Source: Halomonas sp. YLGW01 (GTDB lineage: Bacteria; Pseudomonadota; Gammaproteobacteria; Pseudomonadales; Halomonadaceae). Taken from it: a stretch of 64,000 bases of DNA. Below are positions 29,497-53,854 of this stretch, piece after piece (the stretch's first letter is position 1; the number at the start of each line of letters is the position of its first letter). The translations under genes were made by a program, and so were the position numbers. The notes beneath the pieces were generated by a model that did not search any database, was not told the DNA's origin, and saw only the letters and a program-made list of their open reading frames with translations. The stretch spans positions 2,418,001 to 2,482,000 of the forward strand of contig NZ_CP062005.1 in NCBI RefSeq assembly GCF_014840935.1, given 5' to 3'.

Positions 29497-29928
29497 TCAT
29501 GCTCGGCGCTGGTGCAAAAGGCGCTCCAGGCGCCCCAACATGGTCACCTCGCCGTGCAGCCAGGGGGCCAGCAGACGGGTGGACAGCGGGATGAACAGGA
29601 ACACCATCACCGGGGTCAGCGCGAGGGTGCTGACCAGCACACGCGGCACCAGCGGCAGGCCGGCCAGCAACTCACCGAACAGCAGCTGAAACAGCAGCGA
29701 GACCGGGAAGAAGGCCAGCCAGATCGCCACCGCCTGCTTCCAGCGCGGCGGGGTGTTGCCCTGGGCATCCTGGAACCAGCGGTCGATCCCCGTGGCCCGA
29801 TATTCCTGGGGGGCCACGTAGAGGCCCTCGCCGCGGCCGAGCCAGGCACGGCGCGACGCCGAGTGTTCCCAGGCACGCATGGTCGCGGCATCCGCGAAGC
29901 GGAAAATGATCTGATTCCCACTTGCCAA
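29497..29928 (-). pseudogene. C-terminal part of an island-split ABM/membrane protein gene
   Basis: The minus-strand frame reads IIFRFADAATMRAWEHSA, the second half of an antibiotic-biosynthesis-monooxygenase (ABM) domain, then two membrane segments (QAVAIWLAFFPVSLLFQLLF, VLVSTLALTPVMVFLFIPLS). The missing first half lies 23.8 kb away at 53690-53854 on the same strand and ends DDEYQ at the island edge. The gene is therefore cut between Gln and Ile. The host part ends at about 29910. The island end adds a TTG start (29926-29928) with AGGAGG seven bases ahead, in frame, so the membrane half may still be translated as a 143-residue protein. Confidence 0.85.
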
Positions 29929-29932
29929 AGTG
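29911..29932. other. Left junction of the island with inverted-repeat core
   Basis: Host codons end at about 29910. CTG (29911-29913) is shared with the right junction (53690-53692). CACTT-gcca-AAGTG at 29919-29932 is an inverted repeat of the size tyrosine recombinases bind. The exact crossover bases cannot be fixed from one sequence. Confidence 0.55.
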
Positions 29933-29955
29933 ATACCTCCTGCTAGCATCTCATA

Positions 29956-31113
29956 ATGGACCTCTTCTTCAGCACGAACAAATTCAAACTCAACGGCCTA
30001 AGCTACCCAGGCTTTCCAATTCTTGTTTCCGCAGAGGGAAAGGTTGTTGAGGAAGCGCTGGACTTTTGCATCGCGCACCTGATCAAGCGCGGAAGGGTCC
30101 AATCCAAAAAATCGTGGATCACCTATGGGAAAGCGCTGTATCAATTCTTCGGTTGGTGTGAGGTGAATGGCATTGACTGGCGTGATGTGGGCAATGATCG
30201 AGAAGCAACGATTCTGGCAGAGTTCCGCGACTGGAACCTAAGTCCCGAGGGGGGAAGTCTTGCCGCGGCAACAGTTAATGCACGACTACGACTCCTCTGC
30301 GCCTTCTATCGGTATGCCGCCAACACTGGTTGGGTGACGACTGTTCCGTATGCCATGGAAACAGTCACGGTGAGACAACCGAAAGGGTTCCTGGCTCACG
30401 TCGATGCGAGTGGTGGTAAGCACACAAGCCCAGACATCATGCTGAAGACGCCCCGAACCGTCATTCGGGTGTTGAGCAAGCACCAGTCGGTTGATCTCCT
30501 GAACGCCATCACCAATCCCACGCACAAGTTGATCGTTAGATTAGCGCTCACGACAGGGCTGCGCCGAGAGGAACTTGCAACGTTTCCGCTGAAATACGTT
30601 ATAAATCCGGCGACTTACACCAAGCACCGCTCTTTCATCCGGGTCAATCTTGATCCACGCGACATGACCATCAAAGGCAATCAGCCCAGAGGGATCGACG
30701 TGCCCCGCACCGTAATGGAAGCCCTCTGGCAATACGTCCTGGACCGTCGCTACCAGCATGAGAGCATTTCGGGGCAGCGCCAGTCCGTTTTGTTCCTGAC
30801 GGAATCCGGCCAACCTTACGCGAACGACGGGGCAGCCTTCCTGGGTATTGTGAAGAAGGCTGGAGAGGTTGCCGGTATTCCTTACCTCAACGTCCATATC
30901 CTGCGCCATACCTACGCCACGCACACGCTGTACGCAATGATGCAATCCAAGGCCCAGACGCATGCCTTGCTGTATGTTCGCGACCGACTGGGCCATGCCT
31001 CGGTCACAACCACCGAGAAATATCTGCACTGCCTCTCAGAACTTGAGGATGCGCTGATGAACGACTACCAGAGTGAAATCGACCTCATCAGCAGGGAGAT
31101 TGGCGATGCCTAG
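29956..31113 (+). CDS. ginA: Tyrosine recombinase GinA
   Basis: 385-residue site-specific recombinase at the island edge. The catalytic set is visible: Arg in TTGLRREELATF near 203, HxxR in VHILRHTYATHTL near 314-317, His in RDRLGHASVTTTEKYLH and the nucleophile Tyr near 356. An N-terminal SAM-like core-binding domain covers about 20-130 (KSWITYGKALYQFFGWCE). It starts 43 bp from the island edge; the ribosome site is not obvious. Its last codons contain the ribosome site and ATG of ginB. With GinB and GinC it should catalyse excision and integration. Confidence 0.88.
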   Translation: MDLFFSTNKFKLNGLSYPGFPILVSAEGKVVEEALDFCIAHLIKRGRVQSKKSWITYGKALYQFFGWCEVNGIDWRDVGNDREATILAEFRDWNLSPEGGSLAAATVNARLRLLCAFYRYAANTGWVTTVPYAMETVTVRQPKGFLAHVDASGGKHTSPDIMLKTPRTVIRVLSKHQSVDLLNAITNPTHKLIVRLALTTGLRREELATFPLKYVINPATYTKHRSFIRVNLDPRDMTIKGNQPRGIDVPRTVMEALWQYVLDRRYQHESISGQRQSVLFLTESGQPYANDGAAFLGIVKKAGEVAGIPYLNVHILRHTYATHTLYAMMQSKAQTHALLYVRDRLGHASVTTTEKYLHCLSELEDALMNDYQSEIDLISREIGDA

Positions 31114-32722
31114 AAAAAAGCTACAATCCACACCCCCCCGCCCTGGCAAAGTCGCCAATGACGAAACGCTAGATCTCACGAGTCTGCCTCCTGCCAATAA
31201 GGTTGTGTCTTTGCCCGAAGGGGCCACGGACCAGCGTAACCTCAATTTCGCCAAGCACTACGGAAACGACTGCGATGTAGTGGTCTATGCCACTCAACGT
31301 GCAATGGATCGCATGGCCAAAGCTTCCATTGAAAGCGGTGGAAAAACGCATAGCGCGGCTAGTCTCGTCACATATTTCAGTAACGGAGTGTCATACTTAA
31401 TTTCATTCTGCGCCACGATGGCTTCCGCGCTGGGACGCGAGCTGCGACTGGATGATATCGACCGTGAGTTCATCTATCACTTCATTTCCCATTTGCGGCA
31501 ATCGGGGGGGAGCCTGGGTACCCAGAGAAGCCGATACCAAGCCGCCAAATCGTTACTGGTGGCGATGGGGCAATCAGGCTGGATTGCCAGAAATATTTTC
31601 CCGACCAATCCCTTCCCGAACTCGAATAGATCACACAACGGTCAGACCGCCCTGAGTGAACCAGAACGCCTTAGCGTTTTGCGGGCGATGAAAGCCGATA
31701 TGCTGGAGATCATCAAAGGAAGTGGACCGCTAACATCTTATGAGCTGGTCACATGCCTGCTGGCAATTGCAGCGAGAACGGGTATTAATCCGACCCCTGC
31801 CTCGGAACTCCTAACCGACTGCCTCCACCCCCACCCCATCAAGAAAGACCGATACGTGCTGGTAAGTTTCAAGCGTCGTGGCAGCACCACGCACGTCCAG
31901 AGCCTGCGCCGCACCACCGATGTTGAATCGATGGTGTCTGCGCTGCCTGACGTGGCACGCATTATTGATCTTGTGCGTATTCGCAACGCTTCGCCACGAC
32001 AGGCGAGCGATTACCCACAGCGGCTATTTGTCTACGTGAATCAGGACAATAGAAACGCCGGAAAAATAAGTCGCATGACGATGAACACACTCAACCGAGG
32101 CATAAAAGCATTTCTCGACCGCCACCAGATAAAAGATGCCGATGGCCAGCCGCTGAAGCTCAATGTCATGCGACTGCGCAAGACATTTGAGAACCGGTTG
32201 TTCACTCTGTCTGGCCAGGACCCGTTCCTGACCGCCAGACTCGGAGGTCATACCCCTAAGGTGTCCGACAACCACTATCTGGAGGCTCCGGAACGCGCCG
32301 AGAAAGACTGGCGTCTCATGGGCGAGGTTCGCATCGAGGAACTGCTTAACCATGAAAAAGTAGAGTTAGGGCCAACCCAGAAAACGCCGGTAGCCCGTTG
32401 TCGGGACACCTTGAACGGAGAGCGTGCACCCAAAAATGGCGAGCACTGCCAGAAGTTCCTGGCTTGCTTTCGTTGCCGGTCCTTCGTTGTGACGGGAGAT
32501 GATCTATACCGTATCTTCAGCCTCTATTGGGGGCTGGTTAAGATGCGCCAAAGCATGGGAGCAAGTGCTTGGAAACAGGTTTACGGCCACATAATCCGGA
32601 TCATCGACCGGGAGGTCACCCCACAATTTGATGCCGAGCTTGTAAGTATTCAAAGGCAACGGGCTAAAGTCGACCCGCACCCCTTCTGGCGTGATCCGGA
32701 ACGGTTAGAGGACATCGCATGA
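31106..32722 (+). CDS. ginB: Tyrosine recombinase GinB
   Basis: 538-residue second recombinase of the trio. The catalytic region is recognisable but divergent: RTGINPTPASELL near 228, MRLRKTFENRL near 355 and ARLGGHTPKVSDNHYLEAPE near 378 with the Tyr. A Cys/His cluster follows (VARCRDTL, GEHCQKFLACFRCRSF near 450), possibly a zinc-binding part. The ATG at 31106 overlaps the ginA stop by 8 bp and has AGGGAGA in the ginA end; the frame opens earlier at 31073, but that start has no ribosome site. Such overlaps show tight coupling of the operon. Confidence 0.87.
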   Translation: MPRKKLQSTPPRPGKVANDETLDLTSLPPANKVVSLPEGATDQRNLNFAKHYGNDCDVVVYATQRAMDRMAKASIESGGKTHSAASLVTYFSNGVSYLISFCATMASALGRELRLDDIDREFIYHFISHLRQSGGSLGTQRSRYQAAKSLLVAMGQSGWIARNIFPTNPFPNSNRSHNGQTALSEPERLSVLRAMKADMLEIIKGSGPLTSYELVTCLLAIAARTGINPTPASELLTDCLHPHPIKKDRYVLVSFKRRGSTTHVQSLRRTTDVESMVSALPDVARIIDLVRIRNASPRQASDYPQRLFVYVNQDNRNAGKISRMTMNTLNRGIKAFLDRHQIKDADGQPLKLNVMRLRKTFENRLFTLSGQDPFLTARLGGHTPKVSDNHYLEAPERAEKDWRLMGEVRIEELLNHEKVELGPTQKTPVARCRDTLNGERAPKNGEHCQKFLACFRCRSFVVTGDDLYRIFSLYWGLVKMRQSMGASAWKQVYGHIIRIIDREVTPQFDAELVSIQRQRAKVDPHPFWRDPERLEDIA

Positions 32723-34566
32723 ACGAAGTCAGGTTCCGCGCCGAGCAGATGAAATCCCTCCAAGCCATCGAGGCAGGGGCCTTCAACCCGCACGCTGTTC
32801 TTACCGGGATGCGGCTGGAAGATGGCAGCTACCAGGTTCTGAGCTATTGTGGCGATGATGTCGTGACTCTCCCTGATAGTCTTTTCACTGCTGGGACAAG
32901 TAACAGCCAAAAACTATTAAACTTCTTGCGGGTGCCGCTGGCGTTTCGAGAAACATTCAAGACCTGCGTGACGTCTTACATACTGAAAGGAATTGAAGGA
33001 AGTTCCCCGCCCAAAGGAAATACGATTCGTCAATTTTTCTATCAGGCGATAGCTTTTCTTATCTGGCTTAATGATCGGGGAGTATCCCGGCTGAGCAATG
33101 TGACACCACTGATCTGCCAACAGTATGTGGAGTTCTGCAAAGAGCTAAAGGGTCATAAGGGAGAACCGCTTTCAGGTTCATACTTGAACCGGCGTTTTGT
33201 GGCTGTAAAAAACCTCCACATCCTCAGCCAACAGTCCAGTGACTCCATGCCTTACCCTTGGCAGGAATCGTCAGCATATAAACTTGCGGGGCAGAGTAAA
33301 CTTTTTCACCAAGAAGCTAAGACTGAAATCATCCCGGATGACATCTTGGGATCGCTGCTCCAGTCGACAGTGGACTGGCTGGACCAGGCCGATGACATCA
33401 TCAGTGTCCGCGAGCGAGTTGAAGCGTGGCTATTAGAGGGTATGAGCCGGAAGCCCATCCAAGCACGCTTGAATAAGCTGGGTTGGACAAAAAGTGAGTT
33501 GAGCGAAGCGGAGAGACACCTGCAAACTGCGTGTATGAGCATCGTCCTGATTACCAGCGGTATCCGCGTATCTGAACTGTGCTCACTGGAAAATCAATGC
33601 GCCTTCAAAACTCTGGATGAAGAGGGTGACTCCTTTCACTGGATGCGTGGAACCTCCTACAAGACGGGCGTAAGAGACTGCGAGTGGCTGGTGGCCGAGA
33701 TTACTCACCGCGCCCTTGTCGTGGCTGAGCGCCTTGCGCAACCGCTACAAGCGAATCTGGAGCAGCGTATTTCAGCCCTGCGAACCGACAATCCGAAAGA
33801 CGTCGACATACCCCAGCTGCGGGAGCATAGCCATCGCTTGTTCCTGGCTGTGGGAAAGAAACATAAATACGGGATTGAAACGCTTTCAATCAGTTCTGTC
33901 ATTAAGCGCCTCAATACATTTGCTTCCCAGTGCGGGCTGGAATGGCGCTTTACGCCGCATCAGTTTCGTCGCACCTTCGCGGTCTACGCCGCTCACAGTG
34001 CCTTTGGAGACCTTCGCTACCTACGGGATCATTTCAAGCACTGGTCGCTAGACATGACCACGCTGTACGCCATGTCCCGGCAACAGGATGCCGATCTTTA
34101 CGATAGCATCGGCCTAGCCGCACAGAGCATCAAAATGGATCTCCTGGAGCACTGGCTAGAACCTGATTCGATCCTGGTGGGTGGTGGTGCCGACCCGATC
34201 CAGGCCTTCCGCACGAAAAACGAGGCGCTTGCCACCAAGGAAGGGCGCGCTGAGATGGCCAAAACAATCAGCCCCTTGGTTCACCTGCGGGCCACCGGCG
34301 TCGCGTGGTGTACCGCCGACACTGGAGGCTGTAACGGCGGCCAGGGTATCGAGAAGACACGTTGTGCAGACTGTGGCAATGCCGTCATCGATGAATCACG
34401 CAAGTTCGTGTGGCAAGAGATCTATTCCCAGCAGCTCGAATTGCGTGATCTCACAGATATTGGGCCCGGAGGCACCGAGCGGGTCGAACGTGACATAGAA
34501 CGCTGCGAGGTGGTCCTGAAGGGGCTTGGAGCAACCGGAGAGGACTTGGCTGATGTCGCAACCTGA
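32719..34566 (+). CDS. ginC: Tyrosine recombinase GinC
   Basis: 615-residue third recombinase. The catalytic residues lie in ITSGIRVSELCSLENQ (Arg near 278), PHQFRRTFAVYAAHS (HxxR near 413) and HFKHWSLDMTTLYAMS (His and Tyr near 440-450). The C-terminus has a four-Cys zinc-ribbon-like segment (WCTADTGGCNGG and RCADCGNAVID, about 535-560). The start overlaps the ginB stop by 4 bp (ATGA). The end overlaps ginD. It is larger than standard phage integrases, as known for this recombinase-trio family. Confidence 0.87.
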   Translation: MNEVRFRAEQMKSLQAIEAGAFNPHAVLTGMRLEDGSYQVLSYCGDDVVTLPDSLFTAGTSNSQKLLNFLRVPLAFRETFKTCVTSYILKGIEGSSPPKGNTIRQFFYQAIAFLIWLNDRGVSRLSNVTPLICQQYVEFCKELKGHKGEPLSGSYLNRRFVAVKNLHILSQQSSDSMPYPWQESSAYKLAGQSKLFHQEAKTEIIPDDILGSLLQSTVDWLDQADDIISVRERVEAWLLEGMSRKPIQARLNKLGWTKSELSEAERHLQTACMSIVLITSGIRVSELCSLENQCAFKTLDEEGDSFHWMRGTSYKTGVRDCEWLVAEITHRALVVAERLAQPLQANLEQRISALRTDNPKDVDIPQLREHSHRLFLAVGKKHKYGIETLSISSVIKRLNTFASQCGLEWRFTPHQFRRTFAVYAAHSAFGDLRYLRDHFKHWSLDMTTLYAMSRQQDADLYDSIGLAAQSIKMDLLEHWLEPDSILVGGGADPIQAFRTKNEALATKEGRAEMAKTISPLVHLRATGVAWCTADTGGCNGGQGIEKTRCADCGNAVIDESRKFVWQEIYSQQLELRDLTDIGPGGTERVERDIERCEVVLKGLGATGEDLADVAT

Positions 34567-34984
34567 TGATACTTCCCAGCCGCTTACGCGGGGCGAATTG
34601 ACTGCAAAGGCAATACGCCAGGCCATAGTGCGAATAGAGAAAGGCCGCCCCAAAGTGGTCGAACCAGGGCGCAAGCTCAGCATCCAGTCGGTGGCTGAGG
34701 AAGCCGGGGTCAGTCGAGCGACCATTCACAACAATCACCCTGGTCTTGCCGAGCGTATTCGGGAGGCGGGTAATAAGGCGGTTCGTGCACAGCGGGATGA
34801 AAAGAATACCGAGCTGAAGGAGCTAAGAGCCAAGTATACAGCACTTAGACAAGAGTATCTTGATATACGAAAACTCAGCCAAGATATGGCTTCTGAAATG
34901 GCCTCGTTAGTAGCTGATAATGAGCGTCTGCGATCCATCGTGGAGAATGAGAAAGTGGTCGGATTCCCCTCAAAAACTAGGTAA
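34553..34984 (+). CDS. ginD: Small HTH and coiled-coil protein GinD
   Basis: 143 residues, the fourth gene of the operon. It has an HTH (SIQSVAEEAGVSRATIHNNH, about 44-63) followed by a long charged coiled coil (KNTELKELRAKYTALRQEYL, about 85-130). It resembles the TnpC/GinD accessory proteins that assist the recombinase trio. The ATG at 34553 is preferred because GGAGAGG lies 9 bp upstream; an in-frame upstream start at 34526 is possible. It overlaps the ginC end by 14 bp. Confidence 0.82.
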   Translation: MSQPDDTSQPLTRGELTAKAIRQAIVRIEKGRPKVVEPGRKLSIQSVAEEAGVSRATIHNNHPGLAERIREAGNKAVRAQRDEKNTELKELRAKYTALRQEYLDIRKLSQDMASEMASLVADNERLRSIVENEKVVGFPSKTR

Positions 34985-37198: not shown

Positions 37199-37231
37199 GC
37201 AGGCACCTGAGCGGTTGTCACAAAAATGCGG

Positions 37232-37260
37232 ATTATAGTCCGTGGCCTGTGAGTCCGCAA
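37232..37260 (-). promoter_or_regulatory. Sigma-70 promoter of the wHTH-helicase pair
   Basis: On the minus strand TTGCGG (37260-37255), a 17-bp spacer and a perfect TATAAT (37237-37232), 34 bp before the ATG at 37198. The same stretch is upstream of the divergent XRE gene. Confidence 0.6.
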
Positions 37261-37273
37261 ACACACGATAGTG

Positions 37274-37297
37274 CTGCCTCAAATGAAATTGAGGCAG
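37274..37297. promoter_or_regulatory. Inverted repeat over the XRE ribosome site, putative operator
   Basis: CTGCCTCAA-atgaaa-TTGAGGCAG, perfect 9-bp arms with a 6-nt spacer, ends 2 bp before the XRE start codon and includes its GAGG ribosome site. It could be the operator for autoregulation or an RNA hairpin that hides the ribosome site. Confidence 0.6.
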
Positions 37298-37299
37298 TC

Positions 37300-37530: not shown

Positions 37531-37654
37531 CCCCTCACGCTTTAGAGAGGCATTCAGCGTCACGTCGTAGGACGTCGCCGACAGACGCTGTAAGGCAGCG
37601 CATGTCGCCGCCAGCGCTATGCCCTCTCTTGCCCCTCGCTCCGCGCCCCTGTGT

Positions 37655-37675
37655 ATGATGGTGGTCATCCATCAT
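37655..37675. promoter_or_regulatory. Inverted repeat upstream of hsdM
   Basis: ATGATGG-tggtcat-CCATCAT, perfect 7-bp arms, 31 bp before the hsdM start. It is a candidate operator; it does not share the core of the XRE-proximal repeat. Confidence 0.4.
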
Positions 37676-37705: not shown

Positions 37706-39685
37706 GTGAACACGGACAGTCACTCTCAGACGGCGGCCTTCATCTGGTCGGTCGCGGACCTGCTGCGCGGCGATTTCAAGCAGTCCCAGTATGGGCGGGT
37801 GATCCTTCCGTTCACCCTGCTACGGCGCCTGGAGTGCGTGCTGGCGCCGACCAAGGCGGCGGTGCTAGCCGGGGCCCAGGAGCACCAGAACAAGCCCGAG
37901 GCGGTGCGAGAGAAGCTCCTGCTGCGGGCGGCCGAGCAGCAGTTCTTCAACGCCTCGCCGCTGACGCTGGGCACCCTGTCGGACACCCAGACCGCCGACG
38001 ACCTGATGAGCTACGTGCAGGCCTTCAGCCAAGATGCGCGCGAGATCTTCGATCACTTCCACTTTGAGGACTTCGTCCAGCAGCTGGCCGCCAACGACCT
38101 GCTCTACCAGGTGGTGCAGCGGGTCGCCAGCATCGACCTGAGCCCGGCCACGATCAGCAACTACGGCATGGGGGTGATCTTCGAGGAGCTGATCCGCAAG
38201 TTCGCCGAGAGCTCTAACGAGACCGCCGGGGAGCACTTCACGCCCCGCGACATCGTGCACTTGACCACCTCGCTGGTGCTGACCGGCCAGGACGAGACCC
38301 TGCGCCCGCACCGCATCGCCACCGTCTATGACCCCACGGCGGGCACCGGCGGCTTCCTCTCCGAGAGCGACGAGTACATCCAGCAGGTCAGCGATCGGGT
38401 CACGGTGTCGCTGCACGGCCAGGAGCTGAACCCCGAGTCCTACGCCATCTGCAAGGCCGACATGCTGATCAAGGGCCAGGACGTGGCCCAGATAAAGCTC
38501 GGCAACACCCTCTCCGACGACCAGCTGCCCGCCGAGCGCTTCGACTTCATGCTCGCTAACCCGCCGTTCGGGGTCGAGTGGAAGAAGGTCCAGAAGCAGG
38601 TCACCGACGAGCACAAGCAGAAGGGCTACGACGGTCGCTTCGGCCCGGGCCTGCCGCGCGTCTCTGACGGCTCGCTGCTGTTTCTGATGCACCTGGTCAG
38701 CAAAATGCGCAGCCCCAAGGACGGCGGCTCGCGGATCGGCATCATCCTCAACGGCTCGCCGCTGTTCACCGGCGGGGCCGGCAGCGGGGAGTCCGAGATC
38801 CGCCGCTACCTGCTGCAGCACGACCTGGTCGAGGCGATCGTCGCCCTGCCCACCGACATGTTCTACAACACCGGCATCGCCACCTACGTATGGGTGCTCT
38901 CTAACCACAAACCGGCCGAGCGCCGGGGCAAGGTCCAGCTGATCAACGCCACCGAGCGATTCACCAAGATGCGCAAGTCGCTGGGCAGCAAGCGCCAGTA
39001 CGTGACTGACCGCGACATCGACGAGATCGTGCGGTGCTATGGGGCCTTCCAGGAGACCGAGGAGAGCAAGATCTTCCCGGTGGAGGCTTTCGGCTACCGG
39101 CGCATCACCGTGGAGCGACCGCTGCGCCTCAATTTCCAGGCGAGCCCAGAGCGCCTGGCCAGGCTCGATGACGAGAAGGCCCTCCAGAAACTCCCGGAGG
39201 CCGAGAGAGAGGCTCTCAGGGCCGCCTGCGCCACCCTGGACGCCGAGCGCTGCTACACCAATCGGGACGCCTTCACGAAGGACCTGAAAGCCGCGTTGAA
39301 GCCCACCGGCCTCAAGGTCGGCGCCCCGATCCTCAAGGCCCTCCTCAACGCCCTGTCCGAGCGCGATCCCGAGGCCGAGATCTGCACCGACAAGAAGGGC
39401 AATCCCGAACCCGACAGCGGTCTGCGCGACAACGAGAACGTGCCATTGGACGAGTCGGTATTCGACTACTTTGAGCGCGAGGTGAAGCCTCACGTCCCCG
39501 ACGCCTGGATCGACGAAGACAAGCGCGATGAGTTGGACAACCGTATCGGCATCGTCGGCTTCGAGATCCCCTTCAATCGGCACTTCTACACCTTCGAGCC
39601 GCCACGCCCGCTGGAGGCGATCGACGCCGACCTGAAGGCCTGCACTGACCGGATCAAGGCGATGATTGAGGTGCTGTCGGCATGA
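37706..39685 (+). CDS. hsdM: Type I restriction-modification methyltransferase subunit HsdM
   Basis: 659 residues; adds N6-methyladenine with HsdS and is part of the HsdRMS nuclease. The N-terminal HsdM bundle covers about 8-150. The methyltransferase domain has the SAM motif [14 protein letters not shown] near 208 and the catalytic NPPF in [11 protein letters not shown] at 285. A C-terminal extension of about 180 residues after 480 is typical of the longer HsdM group. The start is GTG (37706) with CGGAGA ahead. The stop overlaps hsdS by 4 bp. GC is high, unlike gin genes, so the locus has a different origin from the recombinases. Confidence 0.94.
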
Positions 39686-41163
39686 CAAATTTGACGGGAT
39701 CAAATTTGAACAGGCGCGAAGCGGCTGGCCCGAAGGGCGACGGCAGGGATAGCCCGAGTAATTTTCCGAAGTATCCCGACTGCAAGGACTCCGGTGTCGA
39801 GTGGCTGGGCAAAATACCTAAGCACTGGGGTTTTTCGCGCTTAGGTTTTGAATCATGGGTTAGGGCTCGTCTGGGCTGGAAAGGATTAAAAGCAGATGAG
39901 TATGTCGATGACGGGTATGTTTTCCTCTCGACACCTAACATAAAGGGAACGTCAATTGACTTCGAAAAAGTAAACTACATAACCAAGGAGAGATTTGAAG
40001 AGTCACCAGAAATTTCGTTGAAAGTAGGCGATGTCCTTCTTGCAAAAGACGGCTCAACACTTGGCACTGTAAATGTGGTGCGCCACCTCCCTCGCCCCAC
40101 AACTGTAAACAGCTCTATAGCAGTAATTACTGCTGGGAAAAACCTGTACGGGCTCTACTTAAGCTATGTTTTCCAGAGCAGCTTCATGAAAGCGACTATT
40201 CAGGCAATCAAAGGGGGTATGGGTGTACCACATTTGTTCCAAGCAGATTTGACCAAGTTCTACCTGCCTTTGCCGCCAGGGGTTGAGCAGTCCACCATCG
40301 CAGCCTTCCTCGACCACGAGACCGCCCGCATCGACGCCCTGGTAGAGGAGCAGCAGCGCCTGATCGCGCTGCTCAAGGAGAAGCGCCAGGCGGTGATCTC
40401 CCATGCCGTGACCAAGGGGCTCGACCCCGACGTGCCGATGAAGGACTCCGGGGTCGAGTGGCTAGGCGAGGTGCCAGCGCACTGGGATGCAATAGCGCTG
40501 AGACGTATTCTCAAACGCATTGAACAGGGCTGGAGTCCAGAATGCTTCAACTTCCCAGCGGAGCCTGATAACTGGGGGGTCCTCAAAGCGGGCGCCGTTA
40601 ATAATGGGGTTTATCGGGAGTCTGAAAACAAGGCCCTTCCTGATGACTTAGAGCCTAGAGGTGGGATTGAAGTCAAGGTGGGCGACCTTATTATGTGCCG
40701 AGCAAGTGGTTCGCCAGACCTGATTGGGTCAGCGGCTCACGTCACTTCTACTCGATCACGGCTAATGCTTTCAGATAAGCTGTTTAGGCTTGTTTTAAAC
40801 GACAATTCAGAACCATCTTATGTCTCATTGATGCTCGGCAGCGCCCCAGTTCGCCGTCAAATTGAGCAATCAATCAATGGCGCTGAAGGTCTTGCCAACA
40901 ACCTTTCTCAAGGCTCGATAAAAGGGCTACTTATTACGCTCCCCCCCGTAACTGAGCAACAAGAGATTGTTGCCCGAGTACATCAAGAAATCATCAAGCT
41001 GAGGCAGCTCTTGGATCAGGCTAGGCGCACAGTTGAGCTCCTGAATGAACGCCGCTCCGCCCTGATCTCTGCCGCCGTCACCGGCAAGATCGATGTGCGC
41101 GGCTGGACGCCGCCGGCCGACGCGGCGCCAGCGCATCAGGAAGCCCGTATGGAGGCGGTATGA
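39682..41163 (+). CDS. hsdS: Type I restriction specificity subunit HsdS
   Basis: 493 residues, two target-recognition domains (TRDs) with conserved helical spacers. Each half begins with the same element: [16 protein letters not shown] at residue 35 and [16 protein letters not shown] at residue 254, 657 bp apart. The first spacer is [20 protein letters not shown] near 210; the second is near 430 ([20 protein letters not shown]). The TRDs (39830-40270 and 40490-40930) are markedly AT-richer than the repeats, the expected sign of TRD exchange. Coupled to hsdM and to the GIY-YIG fragment by ATGA overlaps. The target sequence cannot be predicted by eye. Confidence 0.94.
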
Positions 41164-41453
41164 CCCAGGGACGCAGCATCCGACTCTTCCTAGTGGACGG
41201 CACGCCCAACGGCCTGCTGACCGCCGAGATCATGAACTGGACCGGGCATGTGCTCACCGGGCCGCGCAGTAAGCTCAGCGAGCTGGTGCAGCGCCCGGAG
41301 TGCGGCCGCACCGGCATCTACTTCCTGGTCGGGCCGGACCCCGAGAACAGCCTGCGCCCGCTGGTCTACATCGGCGAGAGCGACGACGTGGCGACGCGCC
41401 TGAAGCAGCACAACCGCCCCGAGGAGAAGGGCGGCAAGGACTTTTGGGGGTAG
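41160..41453 (+). pseudogene. GIY-YIG domain gene, truncated after the N-terminal half
   Basis: 97 codons with the GIY-YIG core GRTGIYFLVGPD and PLVYIGESDDVATRLKQHN (about 50-83), then KDFW, Gly and a stop. Full-length members of this family in type I loci are about 280-300 residues (GIY-YIG plus DUF4357) and continue beyond KDFW. Composition falls sharply right after the stop, where the lipoprotein gene begins. It starts inside the hsdS end (ATGA). It is probably a decapitated nuclease-like accessory gene; the metal-binding Glu normally supplied by the missing part is absent, so activity is unlikely. Confidence 0.78.
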
Positions 41454-41458
41454 TTTCA

Positions 41459-42184: not shown

Positions 42185-42357
42185 TGAACAATCAATTAGT
42201 TAAACCCGCCACTAAAAACACCTTCGGACTGCGAAAGAAAATACTCGATATAAGCCACCAAGTTCTAGGGCGGATCTGTGGCAACGACAACATCAACGAC
42301 CGAATCGACAAGTTCCTCGGTCTGGGGAAATTGCCCGACTGCTGCAGGCAGGAGTAG
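42184..42357 (+). CDS. Small hypothetical protein, 57 residues
   Basis: A GTG at 42184 overlaps the last base of the lipoprotein stop and opens 57 codons (VNNQLVKPATKNTFGLRKKI to KLPDCCRQE). The overlap suggests coupling; no strong ribosome site is seen. No domain is recognised. It fills the space up to 50 bp before hsdR, and its GC is intermediate. It may be a real small gene or leftover of the insert. Confidence 0.35.
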   Translation: MNNQLVKPATKNTFGLRKKILDISHQVLGRICGNDNINDRIDKFLGLGKLPDCCRQE

Positions 42358-42406
42358 GCTAAAGAAAACTATAACTTAAGACCCGCAGGACACGCAGGGA
42401 GCCGGT

Positions 42407-45400
42407 ATGGCGAACAGCAGGGAAGCACAGTTTCAGCAGGACATCATCGACGCCATGGCCGCCGGTGGCTGGCGCGTGGGCAAGGCCAGCGGCTATGACC
42501 GGGTCAATGCCGTTTACCCCGAGGACCTGGTCGGCTTCTTCCAGGAGGCTTACCCGGAGCGCTGGGACAAGTTCGCCAAGGCCCACCCCAAGGCCCCCGA
42601 GACGGCGCTGATCAAGGCGGTGGTAAGGGAGCTTGAACGTGAACGCGGCGGCACCCTCGAGGTGCTGCGCCACGGCTTCAAGGTGCCGGGCAACAAGGTC
42701 GAGCTGTGCAGCTTCAAGCCCGACCACGGCATGAACCCGGACGCCCAGGCCCGCTACCGGGCAAACCGGCTGCGGGTGGTGCCAGAGGTCTCCTACTCCC
42801 CCCACGCCCGCGAGAGCGACTCAGGGGCGGCGAAGAGCTATAACCCGCGCCTGGACCTGGTGCTGTTCGTCAACGGCCTGCCGGTGGCCACTCTGGAGCT
42901 CAAGAGCGCCTTCAAGCAGTCGCTAGAGAACGCCAAGCGCCAGTATCGCTACGACCGGCCGGTGAAGGACCCGGTGACCCGCAAAGCTGAGCCGCTGCTG
43001 ACTTTCAAGCGCGGAGCTTTGGTTCACTTCGCGTTGAGCCAGGACGAGGTGGCGATGACCACCAAGCTGGCCGGCGACAAGACCTTCTTCCTGCCCTTCA
43101 ACCAAGGCAGCGAGGAGGGCGGCGCCGGCAACCCGCCGGCACCGAATGACGCCACCTACGCCACGTCCTACTTGTGGGATCGGGTCTTCCAACCCGATGC
43201 CTGGCTGAAGATCCTGGGCCGCTTCCTGCACCTGGAGCAGGTCACCAAGGAGGACTTCGATGGCCGCCGCCAGACCAAGGAGACGCTGATCTTCCCCCGC
43301 TTCCACCAGTGGGACGTGGTCAATCGACTGGTCGAGACCACACGCCAAGAAGGGCCGGGACGACGCTACCTTGTGCAGCACAGCGCCGGTTCGGGCAAGT
43401 CGAACTCGATCGCCTGGGCGGCCCATCAGCTGGCCAACTTGTACGACGAGGACGGTCAGAAGCAGTTCAATTCGGTGATCGTGGTCACCGATCGCACGGT
43501 GCTCGACAGTCAGCTGCAAGACACCATCTACCAGTTCGAGCATGCCCATGGCGTGGTGTGCCCGATCACGCGTGACGTCGGCAACCAGAGCAAGTCCGAG
43601 CAGCTGGCGGCGGCGCTGGCCAGCAATACCCGCATCATCATCGTCACCATCCAGACCTTTCCGGCACTGTTCGATGCTCTCGACAAGCGCCCCCAGTTGG
43701 CCGAGGGCAGCTATGCGGTGATCGCCGACGAGGCGCACTCCTCGCAGACCGGTTCCTCGGCCAGCAAGCTCAAGGCGTTGCTGGCGGCCGCCGGGGAGGC
43801 CACTGGGGACGATGAGGAAGTGAGCGCCGAGGCGCTGATGGATGCCGCCGTCAGCGCCCGCAAGCCAAGCGAACGGATCAGCTACTACGCCTTCACCGCC
43901 ACCCCCAAGGCCAAGACCCTGGAGCTGTTCGGCCGGGCACCCGACCCCGAGCTGCCTGCCAACAGCGACAACAAGCCCGAGCCCTTTCACCTGTACTCGA
44001 TGCGCCAGGCCATCGAGGAGGGCTTCATCCTCGACGTGCTGGAGCGCTATACCACCTACAGCACCGCCTGGAAGCTGGCCCACCCGAACGGCGACGACCA
44101 GGAGGTGGACTCCAAGAAGGCTTCACGGACCCTGGCCAAGTGGGTGCGGTTGCACCCCCACAACATCGGCCAGAAGGTCGAGGTGATCGTCGAGCACTAC
44201 CGGGCCAACGTGAAGCACCTGCTGGACGGCCAGGCCAAGGCCATGGTGGTCACCGCCAGCCGCCAGGAAGCGGTGCGCTATGCCCTCGCCATGCGCCAGT
44301 ACGTGAAGGACAAAGGCTACCAGGACGTGCACCCGCTGGTCGCCTTCTCGGGCAGCGTGCTGCCGGATGGCGTGATCGAGGAGGAGTTCACCGAGACCAG
44401 CAGCAAGCTCAACCCGGGGCTCAAAGGACGCGACCTGGCCGACGCCTTCGATACCGATGACTACAACGTGATGATCGCGGCCAACAAGTACCAGACCGGC
44501 TTCGACCAGCCCAAGCTGTGCGCCATGTACGTGGACAAGAAGCTGCAGGGCGTGGACTGCGTGCAGACCCTCTCACGGCTCAACCGCATCTTTCCGGGCA
44601 AAGAGACCTTCATCCTCGATTTCTTCAACGACCCCGAGGAGATCCTCGGCGCCTTCGCGCCCTACTACCGCAAGGCCGAGCTGGCCGACGTCTCCGACGC
44701 CAACGTGGTCTATGACCTGCAGCAGACCCTGGATGCCAGCGGGATCTATCACTGGGAGGAGGCCGAGGCCTTCGCCACCGCATTCTTCGACCCCAAGGCC
44801 CCTGCCAGCAAGCTGAGTTACTACTGCCAGCCGGCCAAGGAGCGCTTCACGACCCGCTACAAGGCCATCGTCGATCAGATCGAAACCTGGCAGGCGGCGA
44901 GGAAGCAGGCCGAGCAACAGGGCGACCAGGCCGGCGTGCACCGCGCCGATCAGGAGCTCAAGGACGCCGGCACCACCCGTGATGAGCTCGACCTGTTCCG
45001 CAAGAACCTGACGAGCTTCGTGCGCACCTATGAGTTCCTGTCGCAAATCGTGCACTTCGACGACCGCGAGCTGGAGCAGCTATGCGTGTATGCCCGCCAC
45101 CTCGCCCCGCTCCTGAGGATGGAGCGGCTCGAGGAGGACGCCATCGACGTCAGCGAGCTCGAGCTGACCCACTACCGGCTGACCAAGCGCGCCGAGCACC
45201 AGCTTCGCCTGGAAGAAGAGCAGGGCGACTATGGCCTGCAGCCGATCAGCGAGGTCGGCTCCGGCAAGCCCCATGATCCCGAGAAGAAACGCCTCGACGA
45301 GATCATCGACAAGCTGAACGACCTCTACGGGGCCGAGGTCAGCGACGACGACAAACTGCACTTCGCCAATGGCATCGCCGACCGCATCGAGCGTGACGAG

Positions 45401-45619
45401 AACGTGATGGCTCAGATCCGGCACCATGATTCGGACCAGGTGATGCATGGGCTCTTTCCCAAGAAGGTCGAGCAAGCGGTCATGGATGCCATTACCGACC
45501 ACGAGAAGCTCTCGATGCCGCTGCTAGAGGACGAGGGGACCGGGCGGGAGTTCGCCCTGCTGATTCTCAAGCTGTTGGCAGACAGATCCCGTCAAACCAC
45601 ACGAAGGCCTGAACAATGA
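42407..45619 (+). CDS. hsdR: Type I restriction endonuclease subunit HsdR
   Basis: 1070 residues; ATP-driven translocase and nuclease of the HsdRMS complex. The N-terminal PD-(D/E)XK nuclease has Asp in NPRLDLVLFVNGLPV near 148 and ELK in ATLELKSAFKQS. Motor motifs: Walker A QHSAGSGKSNSIAW at 325, motif II AVIADEAHSSQTG near 441, TAT box in YAFTATPKAKTL and motif VI LQTLSRLNRIFPGK near 725. A helical C-terminus binds HsdM. A CAGGGA ribosome site precedes the ATG. It is separated from hsdS by the AT-rich insert, yet intact. It is the third subunit needed for a functional system. Confidence 0.94.
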   Translation: MANSREAQFQQDIIDAMAAGGWRVGKASGYDRVNAVYPEDLVGFFQEAYPERWDKFAKAHPKAPETALIKAVVRELERERGGTLEVLRHGFKVPGNKVELCSFKPDHGMNPDAQARYRANRLRVVPEVSYSPHARESDSGAAKSYNPRLDLVLFVNGLPVATLELKSAFKQSLENAKRQYRYDRPVKDPVTRKAEPLLTFKRGALVHFALSQDEVAMTTKLAGDKTFFLPFNQGSEEGGAGNPPAPNDATYATSYLWDRVFQPDAWLKILGRFLHLEQVTKEDFDGRRQTKETLIFPRFHQWDVVNRLVETTRQEGPGRRYLVQHSAGSGKSNSIAWAAHQLANLYDEDGQKQFNSVIVVTDRTVLDSQLQDTIYQFEHAHGVVCPITRDVGNQSKSEQLAAALASNTRIIIVTIQTFPALFDALDKRPQLAEGSYAVIADEAHSSQTGSSASKLKALLAAAGEATGDDEEVSAEALMDAAVSARKPSERISYYAFTATPKAKTLELFGRAPDPELPANSDNKPEPFHLYSMRQAIEEGFILDVLERYTTYSTAWKLAHPNGDDQEVDSKKASRTLAKWVRLHPHNIGQKVEVIVEHYRANVKHLLDGQAKAMVVTASRQEAVRYALAMRQYVKDKGYQDVHPLVAFSGSVLPDGVIEEEFTETSSKLNPGLKGRDLADAFDTDDYNVMIAANKYQTGFDQPKLCAMYVDKKLQGVDCVQTLSRLNRIFPGKETFILDFFNDPEEILGAFAPYYRKAELADVSDANVVYDLQQTLDASGIYHWEEAEAFATAFFDPKAPASKLSYYCQPAKERFTTRYKAIVDQIETWQAARKQAEQQGDQAGVHRADQELKDAGTTRDELDLFRKNLTSFVRTYEFLSQIVHFDDRELEQLCVYARHLAPLLRMERLEEDAIDVSELELTHYRLTKRAEHQLRLEEEQGDYGLQPISEVGSGKPHDPEKKRLDEIIDKLNDLYGAEVSDDDKLHFANGIADRIERDENVMAQIRHHDSDQVMHGLFPKKVEQAVMDAITDHEKLSMPLLEDEGTGREFALLILKLLADRSRQTTRRPEQ

Positions 45620-45733: not shown

Positions 45734-47263
45734 ATGAAGGTAGGGTTTTTCTTCGGGGCAGGGGCTGAGATAGGTTATGGACTTCCAAGTGGCGGGAAGT
45801 TTGCCATAGACCTCTTTCGACAGGATGTGAGTGAGCATAAGAAAAAGTTACGTGAGCAGCTGGGGAAGATTGATCCACGAACCAATTACGCAACTAGTTG
45901 GCTTCCAGAGAACTATGCCACACAGCGGATTCATGCATTTGGTAAAAATGAATTTACGGCGTTAATTGAATCGTCAATTGAATACAGAAAAAATGAAATC
46001 ATTCGCAGGCTTAATGCCTTTGATGAAGAGGTCGAGTACGCTCTTTCTCAACTAGGTATAGAAAAGGATGCTCTAATTGATAAATTTAATGAGCAGATGG
46101 GTACCGATTTCGGTGAACACTTGTATTCAACCGCAATAAGAATGAATCCAATTCTGGCTAATGAAGTCAGGCTTTTTGGAAGTGAATCATATTCCGCGAT
46201 TTTAAGTGTTATTAGTGGTGGGCAGAATTCTGCCGATCTTCAGCGATACGCAGGATCCTTTCTTCAGCTACTTGTTGGGGCTCACGGTCAGCACTTAGTG
46301 CAACGACTAAACCAAGAGCTTTTTGAGGCTGCTCCAGATGATATTCCGATTTTCGATGACGTCACAGGAATGTTTAGGCTTGAGTTCAGTCGAGCTGGTC
46401 TTACCGCTTTAGAGCTGCTTCTTGAAAAGCGTCGTGATTATGATCTTGAAAATGGAGATGTTTCTGAAATCTTATGTGCTGTTTCTCAGCAGGTGCTAGA
46501 GAATATATTTACCACAGTCCTCGACTACCAGTCGTTAATAGATAGTCATTTTAGGTACCTTTTTTCACCCAGAACAGAATGGGCAAAGTTTTCTAAGATG
46601 GTGATTTTTCTGCGAGCTACTCGAGATTATATCGTTCAGCAATTAGAGGGAATTGGTGAACTCCCAAGAAGTGGTTATTATCACGATCTTGAGAACTGTG
46701 GAAAGTTAGGGCTTGAGATATCGGCGATTGGCACCTCGAATTATAACAATTTAGTTGAAAAAATATCGCAGGATCTTAATTTCGACATACCTGCCGTCCA
46801 GCACTTAAATGGCGGCGTGACTGATTACTATAACCCATACAAAAATTCAGTGATCTCAGAAAGCGATCCTGATCAGGTTCCTGAGGATCAGATACACGTC
46901 CCTTTTGTTCTTACTCAAAGCGGGTTGAAACCATTAACGTCTGTAGATATGTCTCGTAGGTATGTAGGGCTATACGATGAATATGTTGCGTGTGATCGTT
47001 TAGTTGTTGTGGGGTATGGGTTTAACATAGACGATAGTCACATTAACGGCCTTTTTAGGAAGCTAATCGAGGAAGCCGGGAAGCCAATGGTATGGGTCTG
47101 TTTGGATAAAGATGGTTCAGCAGAATCTCAGAAAAGAGCCTTGGTAAAGCGTTTACGTATTGCCCCTGAATACCGCGAGCTAATATCAGTAATTCCTGTA
47201 AACCCAGCGACTAGGTCCATTGGTGATGAAGGGTGGTTGGAGATTGTAACGCATGGCAATTAG
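45734..47263 (+). CDS. SIR2-like domain protein, putative NAD-consuming defence protein
   Basis: 509 residues. The N-terminus VGFFFGAGAEIGYGLPSGG is the SIR2-like NAD-binding GAG motif. Further SIR2 elements are ISAIGTSNYNNLVEK near 330 (the TNYD-like motif), the His in VQHLNGGVTDY near 355 and LVVVGYGFNIDDSHING near 425. The middle (about 60-320) is helical and unlike sirtuins. SIR2-like proteins in islands commonly deplete NAD after phage infection (family knowledge); this role is inferred here. GC is near 42 percent, the lowest in the island. GGAGG lies 6 bp before the ATG. An attC-like hairpin starts right after the stop. Confidence 0.72.
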   Translation: MKVGFFFGAGAEIGYGLPSGGKFAIDLFRQDVSEHKKKLREQLGKIDPRTNYATSWLPENYATQRIHAFGKNEFTALIESSIEYRKNEIIRRLNAFDEEVEYALSQLGIEKDALIDKFNEQMGTDFGEHLYSTAIRMNPILANEVRLFGSESYSAILSVISGGQNSADLQRYAGSFLQLLVGAHGQHLVQRLNQELFEAAPDDIPIFDDVTGMFRLEFSRAGLTALELLLEKRRDYDLENGDVSEILCAVSQQVLENIFTTVLDYQSLIDSHFRYLFSPRTEWAKFSKMVIFLRATRDYIVQQLEGIGELPRSGYYHDLENCGKLGLEISAIGTSNYNNLVEKISQDLNFDIPAVQHLNGGVTDYYNPYKNSVISESDPDQVPEDQIHVPFVLTQSGLKPLTSVDMSRRYVGLYDEYVACDRLVVVGYGFNIDDSHINGLFRKLIEEAGKPMVWVCLDKDGSAESQKRALVKRLRIAPEYRELISVIPVNPATRSIGDEGWLEIVTHGN

Positions 47264-47853: not shown

Positions 47854-47950
47854 CTTATCCTCTTGATCGCCGAACTATAGCCTGTGCAGCTATGAAGGGG
47901 GGGGCACTTCAACGCAGCACATCTCCAGCCGCCCGTGCCCCGACATGCAG

Positions 47951-50563: not shown

Positions 50564-50737
50564 AGAGTGACTCCGGGCCAACCCAAGTACAGGCAGGCTC
50601 TCCTGGTGAATGTTCCTCGGGAAGCGTGGGCAGATTCCACGTGGTGGCCCCCTGTCTTAGTGCAAGCATGAAGGCGAATAGAAAGGGATCGTGGCGAGAA
50701 CGGGCATGGGGTGATAAATAAATGCTAACTATTCCCT

Positions 50738-52432: not shown

Positions 52433-52692
52433 GACGTCATGTTCCCCTTATTGGTGCATCCGTATCGAGACGCCTACTTTGCGGTCTATCGGGGTCTAAC
52501 GTCCATGTGCAATTGATGAACGCTGGGGCTCGCGCGATCTCTAGCTGGTGGTGATGGTGTTGTCCCGACCGATAGCATCAGGCCCAAGACGGGGGGTGGG
52601 ACACGGTTTTGGTTTTACCTAGACCCCGGACAGTTTTAGGGAGCTGGCGGAGTGTCGAGATGATATTGCTTGGCTTCTGATCGATATGCTGC

Positions 52693-53259
52693 TCAATCCC
52701 TGCAGGCGGCAACATCTGCTGCCAAGTCTTGCAGGAATGACTTGAAGGGATCGGTGTGATTCATGCCCTTGTATGTTCTCGTTTGAGCATGTGGGAATAG
52801 TTGTTGATACTCCGCGAGATGGCTGAATGGCACGATATCATCGAGAGTCCCGTGGTAAAACGTCAGGGCATACGACTGCAACGACTCAATGTCGCGACTC
52901 GTCAGCTTGAACGGCGGGTGTTGCCAGTCGCTATCGGCGCCACACCAGAAGGGGGCTGCTGCAATAAAAACATGTCGCTGTTTCGGCAGCTTTCTCGCAA
53001 CATGTTGCAAGGCCACGGATCCTCCTAGCGAATGACCAACAAGGCATACCTTACTGTCGATATCATCCACTGCGTGTGCAAGTGCTCGTAGCCAGGCGTC
53101 GGCTGAGGGCGATTCCGGATTCGGCATGTCAGGCAACATGACCCTCCAGGTGCTGCCTAACGATGCCTTAAGTACTGGTACCCACTTTGCCAACAAGTTT
53201 TTTCGCGAATAGCGGCTTGCGCCGTGCACGAGTACGAGAGTGGCCTTCTCTGGGATCAT
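52693..53259 (-). CDS. RBBP9/YdeN-family alpha/beta hydrolase
   Basis: 188 residues, the normal size of this serine hydrolase family. The oxyanion region is TLVLVHGASRYSRKN near 8-22, the nucleophile Ser is in VCLVGHSLGGSVALQH near 75, the Asp in FYHGTLDDIVPFSHL near 140 and the His in YKGMNHTDPF near 168. Substrates of the family are mostly unknown. It is the last cargo gene before the right edge of the island. The 260 bp upstream of the GGDEF gene side (52433-52692) show nothing recognisable. An AGAGAAGG-like ribosome site is weak. Confidence 0.82.
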   Translation of the reverse strand: MIPEKATLVLVHGASRYSRKNLLAKWVPVLKASLGSTWRVMLPDMPNPESPSADAWLRALAHAVDDIDSKVCLVGHSLGGSVALQHVARKLPKQRHVFIAAAPFWCGADSDWQHPPFKLTSRDIESLQSYALTFYHGTLDDIVPFSHLAEYQQLFPHAQTRTYKGMNHTDPFKSFLQDLAADVAACRD

Positions 53260-53689
53260 GAGGTTGATTGCTAGCCCTCCCTGCGGCTACCACAGAGTCA
53301 CGGGGTATCAGCTTCAAGATGGTACGTAGAAGATCAAAAAGTAAGTAGAGAGGTTTGCTCTGATTGCTTAGATGCCTTTCTTTGCTATTGTAGCCGGAAG
53401 AGGAGCGTGCGCCTTTCCGGATGCCTATTTACGTTTATGGCAGCATTTGGCCGAAAGCGGTCCTGCCTACCATCTCTGGCTGGCGGTGGTCGGATGAAGT
53501 ACTTCAGGCTGTGCTAATGGGAGCTGCATTCGACGTGGACTACCCGAACCTACATCTCTGAAGATATATCGGGAAAGCTTAACAACCTCGAAATCTTGGC
53601 GCAAAAAATCTAAAACTGTTACCTGGGGTTTTTACCATTTTAATCAGCAACTTACGTAATTATAACATGATATAAGCTACGGTAACCCC
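53260..53689. other. Right terminal region of the island without a recognised gene
   Basis: 430 bp, AT-rich towards the end. A 46-codon plus-strand frame (53421-53561) lacks a ribosome site and has no family likeness. Near the edge there are short palindromic stretches (TTACGTAA at 53652-53659, GGTAACC at 53681-53687) that could be recombinase sites. No promoter or terminator was supported. Confidence 0.4.
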
Positions 53690-53854
53690 CTGGTACTCGT
53701 CGTCGCCATGGGGGGGCGCCAGCACCCCGGAGCCCAGGTAGCCGGGGTAATCGCAGGCCAGGTCGCGGCCCTCGTCGAGCCAGGCGGTGAAATCACGGTA
53801 ACGGCCGCGAGCCACGCGGCGCGCCACCATCAGGGTGACGGGTTCGGTAGACAT
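53690..53854 (-). pseudogene. N-terminal part of the island-split ABM gene
   Basis: The minus-strand ATG at 53854 follows AGGAGATA and opens MSTEPVTLMVARRVARGRYR, the start of an ABM domain, ending APPHGDDEYQ at the island edge. Beyond it the frame runs nine codons into island DNA (GVTVAYIML) and stops at 53660. The rest of the gene is at 29497-29910. The joined protein would be about 190 residues: an ABM half-domain pair plus two membrane helices. Function of the intact protein is unknown; ABM domains can be heme or quinone monooxygenases. Confidence 0.85.

Follow-up and report, generated by a model that had tools for sequence, protein, structure and literature searches.

A GInt-type island that interrupts an ABM-domain gene in Halomonas sp. 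YLGW01: a probable off-target insertion by a clade otherwise found at start codons

A 23.8-kb island in Halomonas sp. YLGW01 cuts an ABM-domain membrane-protein gene in two, while in seven delimited relatives of this island the insertion coincides exactly with a protein gene's start codon. We consider it probable that this is a GInt-type island whose clade normally inserts at start codons, and that the copy described here went off target and broke the ABM gene. The window, i.e. the whole stretch of DNA analysed, comprises 64,000 nucleotides (assembly GCF_014840935.1, contig NZ_CP062005.1, positions 2,418,001–2,482,000 of the forward strand), of which the island occupies 23,779 bp (29911–53689). 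Its edges, its recombinase operon and the host gene are as follows, in window coordinates:

29497..29916, minus strand: C-terminal part of the host gene (...QIIFRFADAAT...), attL core to stop, from its translation; whole gene in G003, G004 and G006
29911..29916, plus strand: attL core CTGATT, from the alignment with whole genes; ATGATT in 7/7 delimited relatives
29917..29955, plus strand: left end, an inverted-repeat-like arm with a promoter-like TTGCCA-16-TAGCAT (29922–29949), just 5' of ginA
29956..31113, plus strand: ginA (position 1), tyrosine recombinase of 385 aa (Pfam Phage_integrase 6.7e-14) with box-I Arg, HxxR and Tyr
31106..32722, plus strand: position 2, recombinase-like protein of 538 aa from the ATG at 31106 (Pfam Phage_int_SAM_5 3.8e-4, under its cut-off)
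32719..34566, plus strand: position 3, large tyrosine recombinase of 615 aa (Pfam Phage_integrase 3.9e-7) with HxxR and Tyr
34553..34984, plus strand: ginD (position 4), small protein of 143 aa, recognized by its likeness to the products of the fourth gene in three plasmid-borne islands (40.8–56.8% identity in local alignments); no Pfam match at 1e-3
53570..53689, plus strand: right end, AT-rich (37.5% G+C), with TAACATG...GGTAA four bases before the core; same motif spacing in relatives
53690..53695, plus strand: attR core CTGGTA, from the alignment; CTGATA in the whole genes of G003, G004 and G006
53690..53854, minus strand: N-terminal part of the host gene (ABM-domain membrane protein), attR core included, from its translation (MSTEPV...GDDEYQ)

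The preliminary description had proposed that the island splits one host gene, and this is borne out. Joined, the two fragments form a single 192-aa open reading frame with 0 internal stops, in which Pfam detects an ABM domain (E 3.4e-5, residues 5–78). In a search of seven genomes of the genus, the window's own among them, the whole gene was found in three of the six others (G003, G004, G006), at 90–94% identity and with no stop; G005 gave a match of 38 residues only, and G001 and G002 (88% complete) gave none. Fragments lying apart in relatives were sought and not found, as all three full-length matches are uninterrupted reading frames. When 20 kb around each whole gene was compared by BLAST, in all three cases the two window pieces overlapped by 5 bases at a point within the gene, which fixes the island's edges to within the 6-bp core; the edges proposed earlier, 29911 and 53692, are right to within 3 bases by alignment to the whole genes. 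Likewise, the target is indeed not a tRNA gene: an ARAGORN scan of the window detects neither tRNA nor tmRNA genes.

It is highly improbable that the ABM gene was dead beforehand or that its split is an assembly artefact. We found no point in favour of either; the genome is assembled as a single contig, the fragments are 84–96% identical in DNA to the whole genes and both open in frame, and the conserved ends of the element fall exactly at both joints. The C-terminal fragment and ginA each occur once in this genome. Since the cut lies at codons 54–55 of 192, inside the ABM domain, the gene has presumably lost its function. On the minus strand, an AGGAGG (29936–29941) stands seven bases before a TTG (29926–29928) in frame with the C-terminal part, and this pair (29926..29941) is a possible secondary ribosome-binding site of the truncated host gene.

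As the preliminary description held, a ginABCD-type operon lies at one end, its ginA starting 39 bp past the attL core. With three tyrosine-recombinase-like genes and a small ginD at one end, followed by cargo and a short AT-rich other end, the island resembles the GInts. The AT-rich end recurs in 8/8 islands, where the last 120 bp have 25–37.5% G+C against 45–61% for the whole islands (37.5% against 56.5% in the window). In GInts, it is the third protein, GinC, that is without the first catalytic Arg, whereas here the usual box-I Arg and HxxR are missing from the second protein. GInts have imperfect direct repeats of 10–17 nt; the window's two att cores share 4/6 bases and the surrounding 18 bases 8/18. 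GInts also excise as a circle, a process for which all four genes are needed. Among NCBIfam models, positions 1 and 3 had only Xer- or integron-type matches, under cut-off, and the other five proteins searched had none.

The gene order, intA-tfp-intB-srap with a degenerate recombinase second, and the 6-bp spacer are also those of strand-biased circularizing elements (SEs), and in a comparison with 16 proteins the sole SE match of each window gin protein is its counterpart in the pAQU1 SE (E 1.8e-7, 5.8e-4, 9.1e-6 and 4.0e-5). Nevertheless, we regard it as unlikely that the element is an SE and not a GInt, as this similarity is marginal and that to the three plasmid-borne islands far higher (34.5–57% identity). 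Furthermore, the SE rule in the available text of PMC10214605 places the host 6 bp at the intA-proximal border, but in the window's clade they lie at the ginA-distal border. Because the degenerate second protein and the gene order are common to SEs, 'GInt/SE superfamily' is the safer label for the element that we otherwise call GInt-type.

The island carries the following cargo:

35220–36611, minus strand: ResIII/helicase-like protein (Pfam ResIII 7.8e-11; PADLOC PbeA-like 2.3e-15)
36608–37282 and 37279–37668, minus strand: two small genes with no match in the Pfam, PADLOC and NCBIfam scans
37706..45619, plus strand: type I restriction-modification system (PADLOC 5.5e-285, 4.4e-137, 1.4e-47, 4.7e-33; Pfam N6_Mtase 2e-60, HSDR_N 4.1e-11), with hsdM 37706–39685, hsdS 39682–41163, a PDC-S14-like short piece 41160–41453 and hsdR 42407–45619
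45734..47263, plus strand: weak SIR2-like protein (Pfam SIR2_2 0.0023, under its cut-off; PADLOC none)
47951–50581, minus strand: GAF-PAS-GGDEF-EAL protein (Pfam EAL 6.2e-76, GGDEF 1.1e-40)
50738–52432, minus strand: PAS-GAF-GGDEF protein (Pfam GGDEF 1.4e-41)
52693–53259, minus strand: alpha/beta hydrolase (Pfam Abhydrolase_6 1.1e-11)

The scanned island proteins include no phage or conjugation genes, in agreement with the preliminary description. Restriction-modification cargo is often reported for GInts in the available text of PMC5385486, together with staggered cuts of 6–7 nt, and the available part of PMC10214605 counts GInts in 10.3% of Halomonas replicons.

The seven delimited relatives have GinA proteins 76–98% identical to that of the window, and each sits exactly at the start codon of a protein gene (ATGAnn; once GTGAAC). 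Their attR cores, all of them the start of an open reading frame, read ATGACG (G219), ATGAAA (G232 and G271), GTGAAC (G247), ATGAAC (G222 and G275:C34, the latter from Marinobacter goseongensis) and ATGAAT (G1006). At the left end, all seven carry GTGATACAT, which in the window reads GTGATACCT. The six target genes are unrelated: a comM-like gene (G219), dctP, pepD (twice, in G247 and G222), an asmA-like gene, purD and a DUF4398 lipoprotein gene. Their products match Mg-chelatase ChlI, DctP, peptidase M20, AsmA, DUF4398 and GARS_N from residue 1; for those that we take to be comM (or yifB) and pepD, Pfam itself says ChlI/Mg_chelatase and Peptidase_M20. A target in the interior of coding sequence thus holds for the window copy and is not the habit of the clade. 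With all seven relatives at start codons, a translation start seems to be what the clade normally targets, and the window copy, antisense and inside a gene, would be an off-target insertion.

Empty sites in other species back five of the six target genes. Of thirty loci collected, four are the island loci, and from the remaining 26, 15 were aligned; the empty site was present at 1/1 comM, 6/6 dctP, 4/4 pepD and 3/4 asmA loci, the fourth asmA locus having an apparent scar, and exactly as predicted in 1/29 purH-purD junctions. For the DUF4398 target none was found, its flank being absent from the matches in 120 genomes of G1006's family, the family also used for the purD site. The host 6 bp on the distal side are identical to the empty site for comM, dctP, asmA and the pepD of G222, and one base off for the pepD of G247 and purD. 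Two targets have aberrant reading frames: the comM-like one of G219 stops at 305 aa, and pepD in G222 is frameshifted past ~71 codons. The G222 genome is of lower quality (86% complete, 6% contaminated), and its ginA, ginD and comM are likewise broken.

On a generous count, 185 of the 2,917 ATGA[ACT] sites across 482 kb of flanking DNA are possible start codons, so that six target genes all hit at their starts have a chance probability of 6.5e-8, for a sample of six genes from one clade and a rule (ATGA) that was noticed before it was counted. Alternatively, a loose NTGA core may suffice, with insertions occurring everywhere and those at start codons surviving since the coding sequences stay whole. 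The window copy does show that insertion within a gene is possible, and the target start regions have, by eye, little in common past ATGA. However, were gene-interior insertions merely lost by selection, ~32% of the tolerated sites would be start codons, and six out of six distinct genes would have a chance of ~1e-3; non-coding ATGA[ACT] sites (396 against 185 possible starts) should also be hit more often, yet none of the seven relatives lies at one. We therefore regard survival alone as rather doubtful and infer that the recombinases prefer start regions.

Under such a preference, the island would integrate through its own three recombinase-like proteins and GinD at a 6-bp core, NTGANN, normally made up of a protein gene's first two codons. 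The half-site next to ginA would land behind the promoter and ribosome-binding site that belong to the host, and the other half-site, often with GAGGTAA, directly 5' of the captured start codon, so that the captured coding sequence would keep its start and gain a new upstream region. The window island would have recombined at a look-alike (CTGATA/CTGGTA), antisense inside the ABM-domain gene, and thereby broken it.

The captured start codon adjoins the island's distal end, which in 4/7 relatives has the Shine-Dalgarno-like GAGGTAA four bases upstream, and the distal end may drive translation of the captured gene. Its predicted anti-Shine-Dalgarno pairing is stronger than that of the native sequence in 5/7 and weaker in the two cargo-less islands, while it is near random in the window and in G247; the sole distal end scanned for a sigma-70-like promoter, that of G219, has none. 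Tentatively, the translation-initiation region as a whole (Shine-Dalgarno, spacer, NTGA) might be the attachment site, with joined ends that mimic a gene start and provide a portable ribosome-binding site for many genes; the window copy would then have missed and landed antisense, its left arm having since become an AGGAGG site from which translation of the truncated host protein restarts.

A weight matrix of the right end, trained on six islands including the window's, found its best match beside a start codon in two islands outside the training set, although in G1006 the right end scored 15.8 against 14.4 for the best reverse-strand match. A right-end pattern, GGTAANCCCNTGN, matched the window's end and one place inside the G247 gin operon, and the empty-site comparison was used instead.

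GinA relatives occur in 12/275 genomes of the window's family, 9/390 of the order and 2/369 of the class, and in 1/140 and 1/163 of the families of G1006 and G275, respectively, counts that include the own genome where listed and come from searches with differing E limits. The hosts in which the clade was found are Halomonas/Vreelandella, Marinobacter and one more family of the same order, and outside the window's family it was found only in G1006 and G275. Viral contigs yielded neither stretches with the left-end pattern nor GinA relatives. Within the genus, the third recombinase is found in its own genome and otherwise gives weak, partial matches (G002 1.3e-9, G004 4.2e-4), so that we see no second clade member there. 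Left out of the count were broken ginA copies in G206, G212, G216, G218 and G266 (loci without GTGATACAT), a partial 37% match in G037 and a further Marinobacter copy whose 5,160-bp contig leaves it without flanks (G275:C50/L034). The more distant GinA relatives (~43–54%), namely G290, the seven below G1006 in the order search and plasmid hits H1–H3, do not have ATGATT...GTGATACAT in the bases 5' of ginA; they were left undelimited and carry no weight for or against start-codon use.

As a rule, each site-specific island element is tied to a single conserved gene. The usual target of Tn554 is one gene, radC. The Tn554 family also shares with our element a normal and a large tyrosine recombinase, a small helper and a 6-bp footprint, going by the available text of PMC10214605, but is not known to have the degenerate second recombinase. 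Gene 5' ends are hit, and upstream signals in several cases replaced, by dusA and prfC islands, which re-supply promoter and N-terminus (PMC8409611, available text), and by streptococcal integrative elements (ICEs) upstream of rbgA, ftsK and ebfC (PMC4701971, available text); however, each of these element types has its own gene, and the dusA and prfC coding sequences are partly replaced. GInt insertion is site-specific as well, with some intergenic sites, whereas the clade described here uses the start codons of six unrelated genes, with the window copy elsewhere again. The open PMC literature that we found, as far as its text was available, does not describe start-codon targeting by GInts or SEs, and the term 'start codon' has 0 occurrences in PMC5385486 and PMC10214605, supplementary tables aside, which may show the pattern.

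If the clade uses start codons in general, it would have very many safe sites per genome and would alter the upstream signals of any gene it lands on, and the scattered relatives would be explained. Landings of this kind can be mapped with single-base precision, which opens the choice of target by three-recombinase elements to direct testing. The clade also varies in build: while the available text of PMC5385486 reports 2.5–70 kb of cargo for GInts, cargo-less islands of ~5.15 kb exist in this clade, as do islands whose ginD lies at the far end.

Comparison with related genomes confirmed the preliminary description in taking the two halves of one host gene as the borders of the island, the proposed edges being correct within three bases. 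The host gene lies in the window as two minus-strand pieces with 23.8 kb between them, which when joined encode a 192-aa protein whose ABM domain spans residues 5-78. Aligning flanks with relatives, as had been suggested, yielded the uninterrupted gene in three of the six other genomes of the genus (seven including its own), at 90-94% identity and without stops; in the genus search, G005 has only a 38-residue match, and two of the six have none. Over the 20 kb compared, the two window pieces abut with a 5-base overlap in each of the three whole-gene stretches, and the uncut core is CTGATA in all three. The island thus delimited measures 23,779 bp and occurs once in a search of its own genome. 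ARAGORN found no tRNA in the window. In the whole-gene loci (L012, L013, L014), the gene is flanked by a stretch of about 4.8 kb, with an alcohol dehydrogenase-like gene, a response regulator and neighbours, and by one of about 6.1 kb that includes BCCT-like and GMC-oxidoreductase-like genes (names by eye); both are absent from the corresponding place in the window (29281-29497, 53952-54061).

Features of the window island
29911-29916, attL core CTGATT, from alignment to the three whole genes
Left end, 39 bp, promoter-like TTGCCA-16-TAGCAT, ending six bases before the ginA ATG
ginA, first of four consecutive genes, 385-aa tyrosine recombinase
Second gene, recombinase-like, 538 aa, usual box-I Arg and HxxR missing
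Third gene, 615-aa recombinase, HxxR and Tyr present
Fourth gene, ginD, GinD, 143 aa
Cargo, ResIII-like helicase and two unknown small genes
Cargo, type I restriction-modification system
Cargo, weak SIR2-like protein
Cargo, GGDEF-EAL protein, GGDEF protein and alpha/beta hydrolase
Right end, last 120 bp, AT-rich, 37.5% G+C
53690-53695, attR core CTGGTA, from alignment to the three whole genes

The ginABCD operon previously noted at one end is thus recovered as three recombinase or recombinase-like genes and GinD in a row at the left. With only six bases left between the promoter-like -10 and the ginA ATG, translation of ginA may proceed from a leaderless mRNA. The -35 overlaps the arm TTGCC (window 29922-29956). 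A PDC-S14-like gene in the restriction cluster (41160-41453) encodes just 97 aa, compared with 280-320 in the matching profiles. The island, its operon and its restriction cargo are all features of GInts (PMC5385486), which are already on record from Halomonas (PMC10214605).

Within the family, 12 of 275 genomes, the island's own among them, have a GinA match at E 1e-30 or below, and five related loci come from Vreelandella (two), Marinobacter goseongensis (two) and Halomonas olivaria (one). The delimited relatives share a left end composed of a core ATGATT, a few bases and GTGATACAT, followed by ginA. Their left neighbours mostly differ, the same one recurring in G247 and G222, and empty sites were therefore sought by searching 71 genomes of genus g23, Vreelandella records included, with the combined left flanks of G219, G232, G247 and G271 as a single DNA query. 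The bases next at the empty sites are ATGACG (G219), ATGAAA (G232), ATGAAC (G247) and ATGAAA (G271), in each case codons one and two of an ORF; the sequence 3' of each core is found at the far end of the corresponding island. Across 15 aligned loci, the site is empty for comM in 1/1, dctP in 6/6, pepD in 4/4 and asmA in 3/4. In the fourth asmA locus (L065, G204), GAGGTAATGCG separates the neighbouring gene from ATGAAA, a gap that is just one A in the other loci; as it resembles an island right end, it looks like a scar in which a lost island left its ribosome-binding site behind. GGGT occurs in both the host flank and the G271 island end.

The pepD start codon is occupied a second time, by the island of G222, whose GinA is 76-83% identical to that of the window. 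There, pepD loses its frame after about 71 codons, both ginA and ginD carry frameshifts, and comM is broken too; the comM-like ORF of G219 stops at 305 aa, shorter than is usual for ComM. In G271 (L040, L052) and G222 (L041, L055), ginD adjoins attR at the far end (island coordinates 14725-15144 of 15,233 and 7999-8417 of 8,505), and the cargo separates it from ginC.

From six islands, that of the window among them, a weight matrix was built for the 31 bases that precede the distal core; it was then used to scan 80 kb each from two islands outside the training set. The best score was 22.0 in G275 (next 9.3, best reverse 10.1) and 15.8 in G1006 (next 11.2, best reverse 14.4), and the matches are followed by ATGAAC and ATGAAT, respectively. 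The resulting islands, of 5,158 bp (G275) and 5,146 bp (G1006), are without cargo. In G1006, the right-end match coincides with the purD start (GARS_N beginning at residue 1) and the left flank reads as the end of purH (by eye); the predicted empty site is exact in one of 29 family loci with a purH-purD junction (L121), the spacing in the remaining ones being -2 to 420 bp. For the DUF4398 lipoprotein gene targeted in G275, the search for an empty site found none. A further contig, L034, of 5,160 bp, starts at ATGATTCCC and finishes with ATGGGAA after a right end, as though a circular or multicopy form of a cargo-less island had been assembled separately.

The seven delimited relatives thus all occupy start codons, those of six unrelated genes (Pfam), and the window copy is the only exception. 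Counting any in-frame ATG up to codon 40 of a chosen ORF as a possible start codon, 185 of 2,917 ATGA[ACT] sites in 482 kb of flanks qualify; the six-gene chance is 6.5e-8, or about 1e-3 if insertions are tolerated only outside genes. These figures are guides only, because the counting came after the rule had been noticed. We found no clade using the start codons of many genes in the open-access titles, abstracts and text passages searched.

The attL core is ATGATT in 7/7 relatives, and the six attR bases equal the empty site in comM, dctP, asmA and the G222 pepD, and differ from it by one base in the G247 pepD and purD. Because attL is constant and attR host-like, it is simplest to suppose that the element's own core remains at the ginA side. 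The strand-biased circularizing elements (SEs), which gene order and weak similarity link to the present clade, are reported with the opposite placement (PMC10214605).

GAGGTAA plus four bases precedes the captured start codon in four of seven islands (G219, G232, G271, G222); G247 has GCGGTAA, and the two cargo-less islands have weaker matches. Predicted pairing with the 3' end of 16S rRNA is stronger at the distal end than in the native upstream 20 bases in five of seven cases and weaker in two, the four GAGGTAA ends reaching -6.9 to -9.5 (random 20-mers: mean -2.8, 5% point -7.2). From these energies and matches, it is therefore plausible that most captured genes receive a new ribosome-binding site from the island end. 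A consensus scan for a distal promoter in G219, the single island scanned, found none. Islands providing a gene with new 5' signals are already known at dusA and prfC and as streptococcal ICEs (PMC8409611, PMC4701971).

The window island itself lies antisense within its gene, at CTGATA/CTGGTA, and its right end is without GAGG, with a pairing energy about random (-3.0). At its left end, the GTGATACAT of the relatives (7/7) is replaced by GTGATACCT, part of a minus-strand AGGAGG seven bases before a TTG in frame with the C-terminal part of the split host gene. This AGGAGG, which may reflect either repair of translation or luck, has a pairing energy of -11.6, reached by 0.4% of random 20-mers, the true chance being higher because 28 overlapping windows were scanned; the same region pairs no better than -4.5 in any of the seven relatives.
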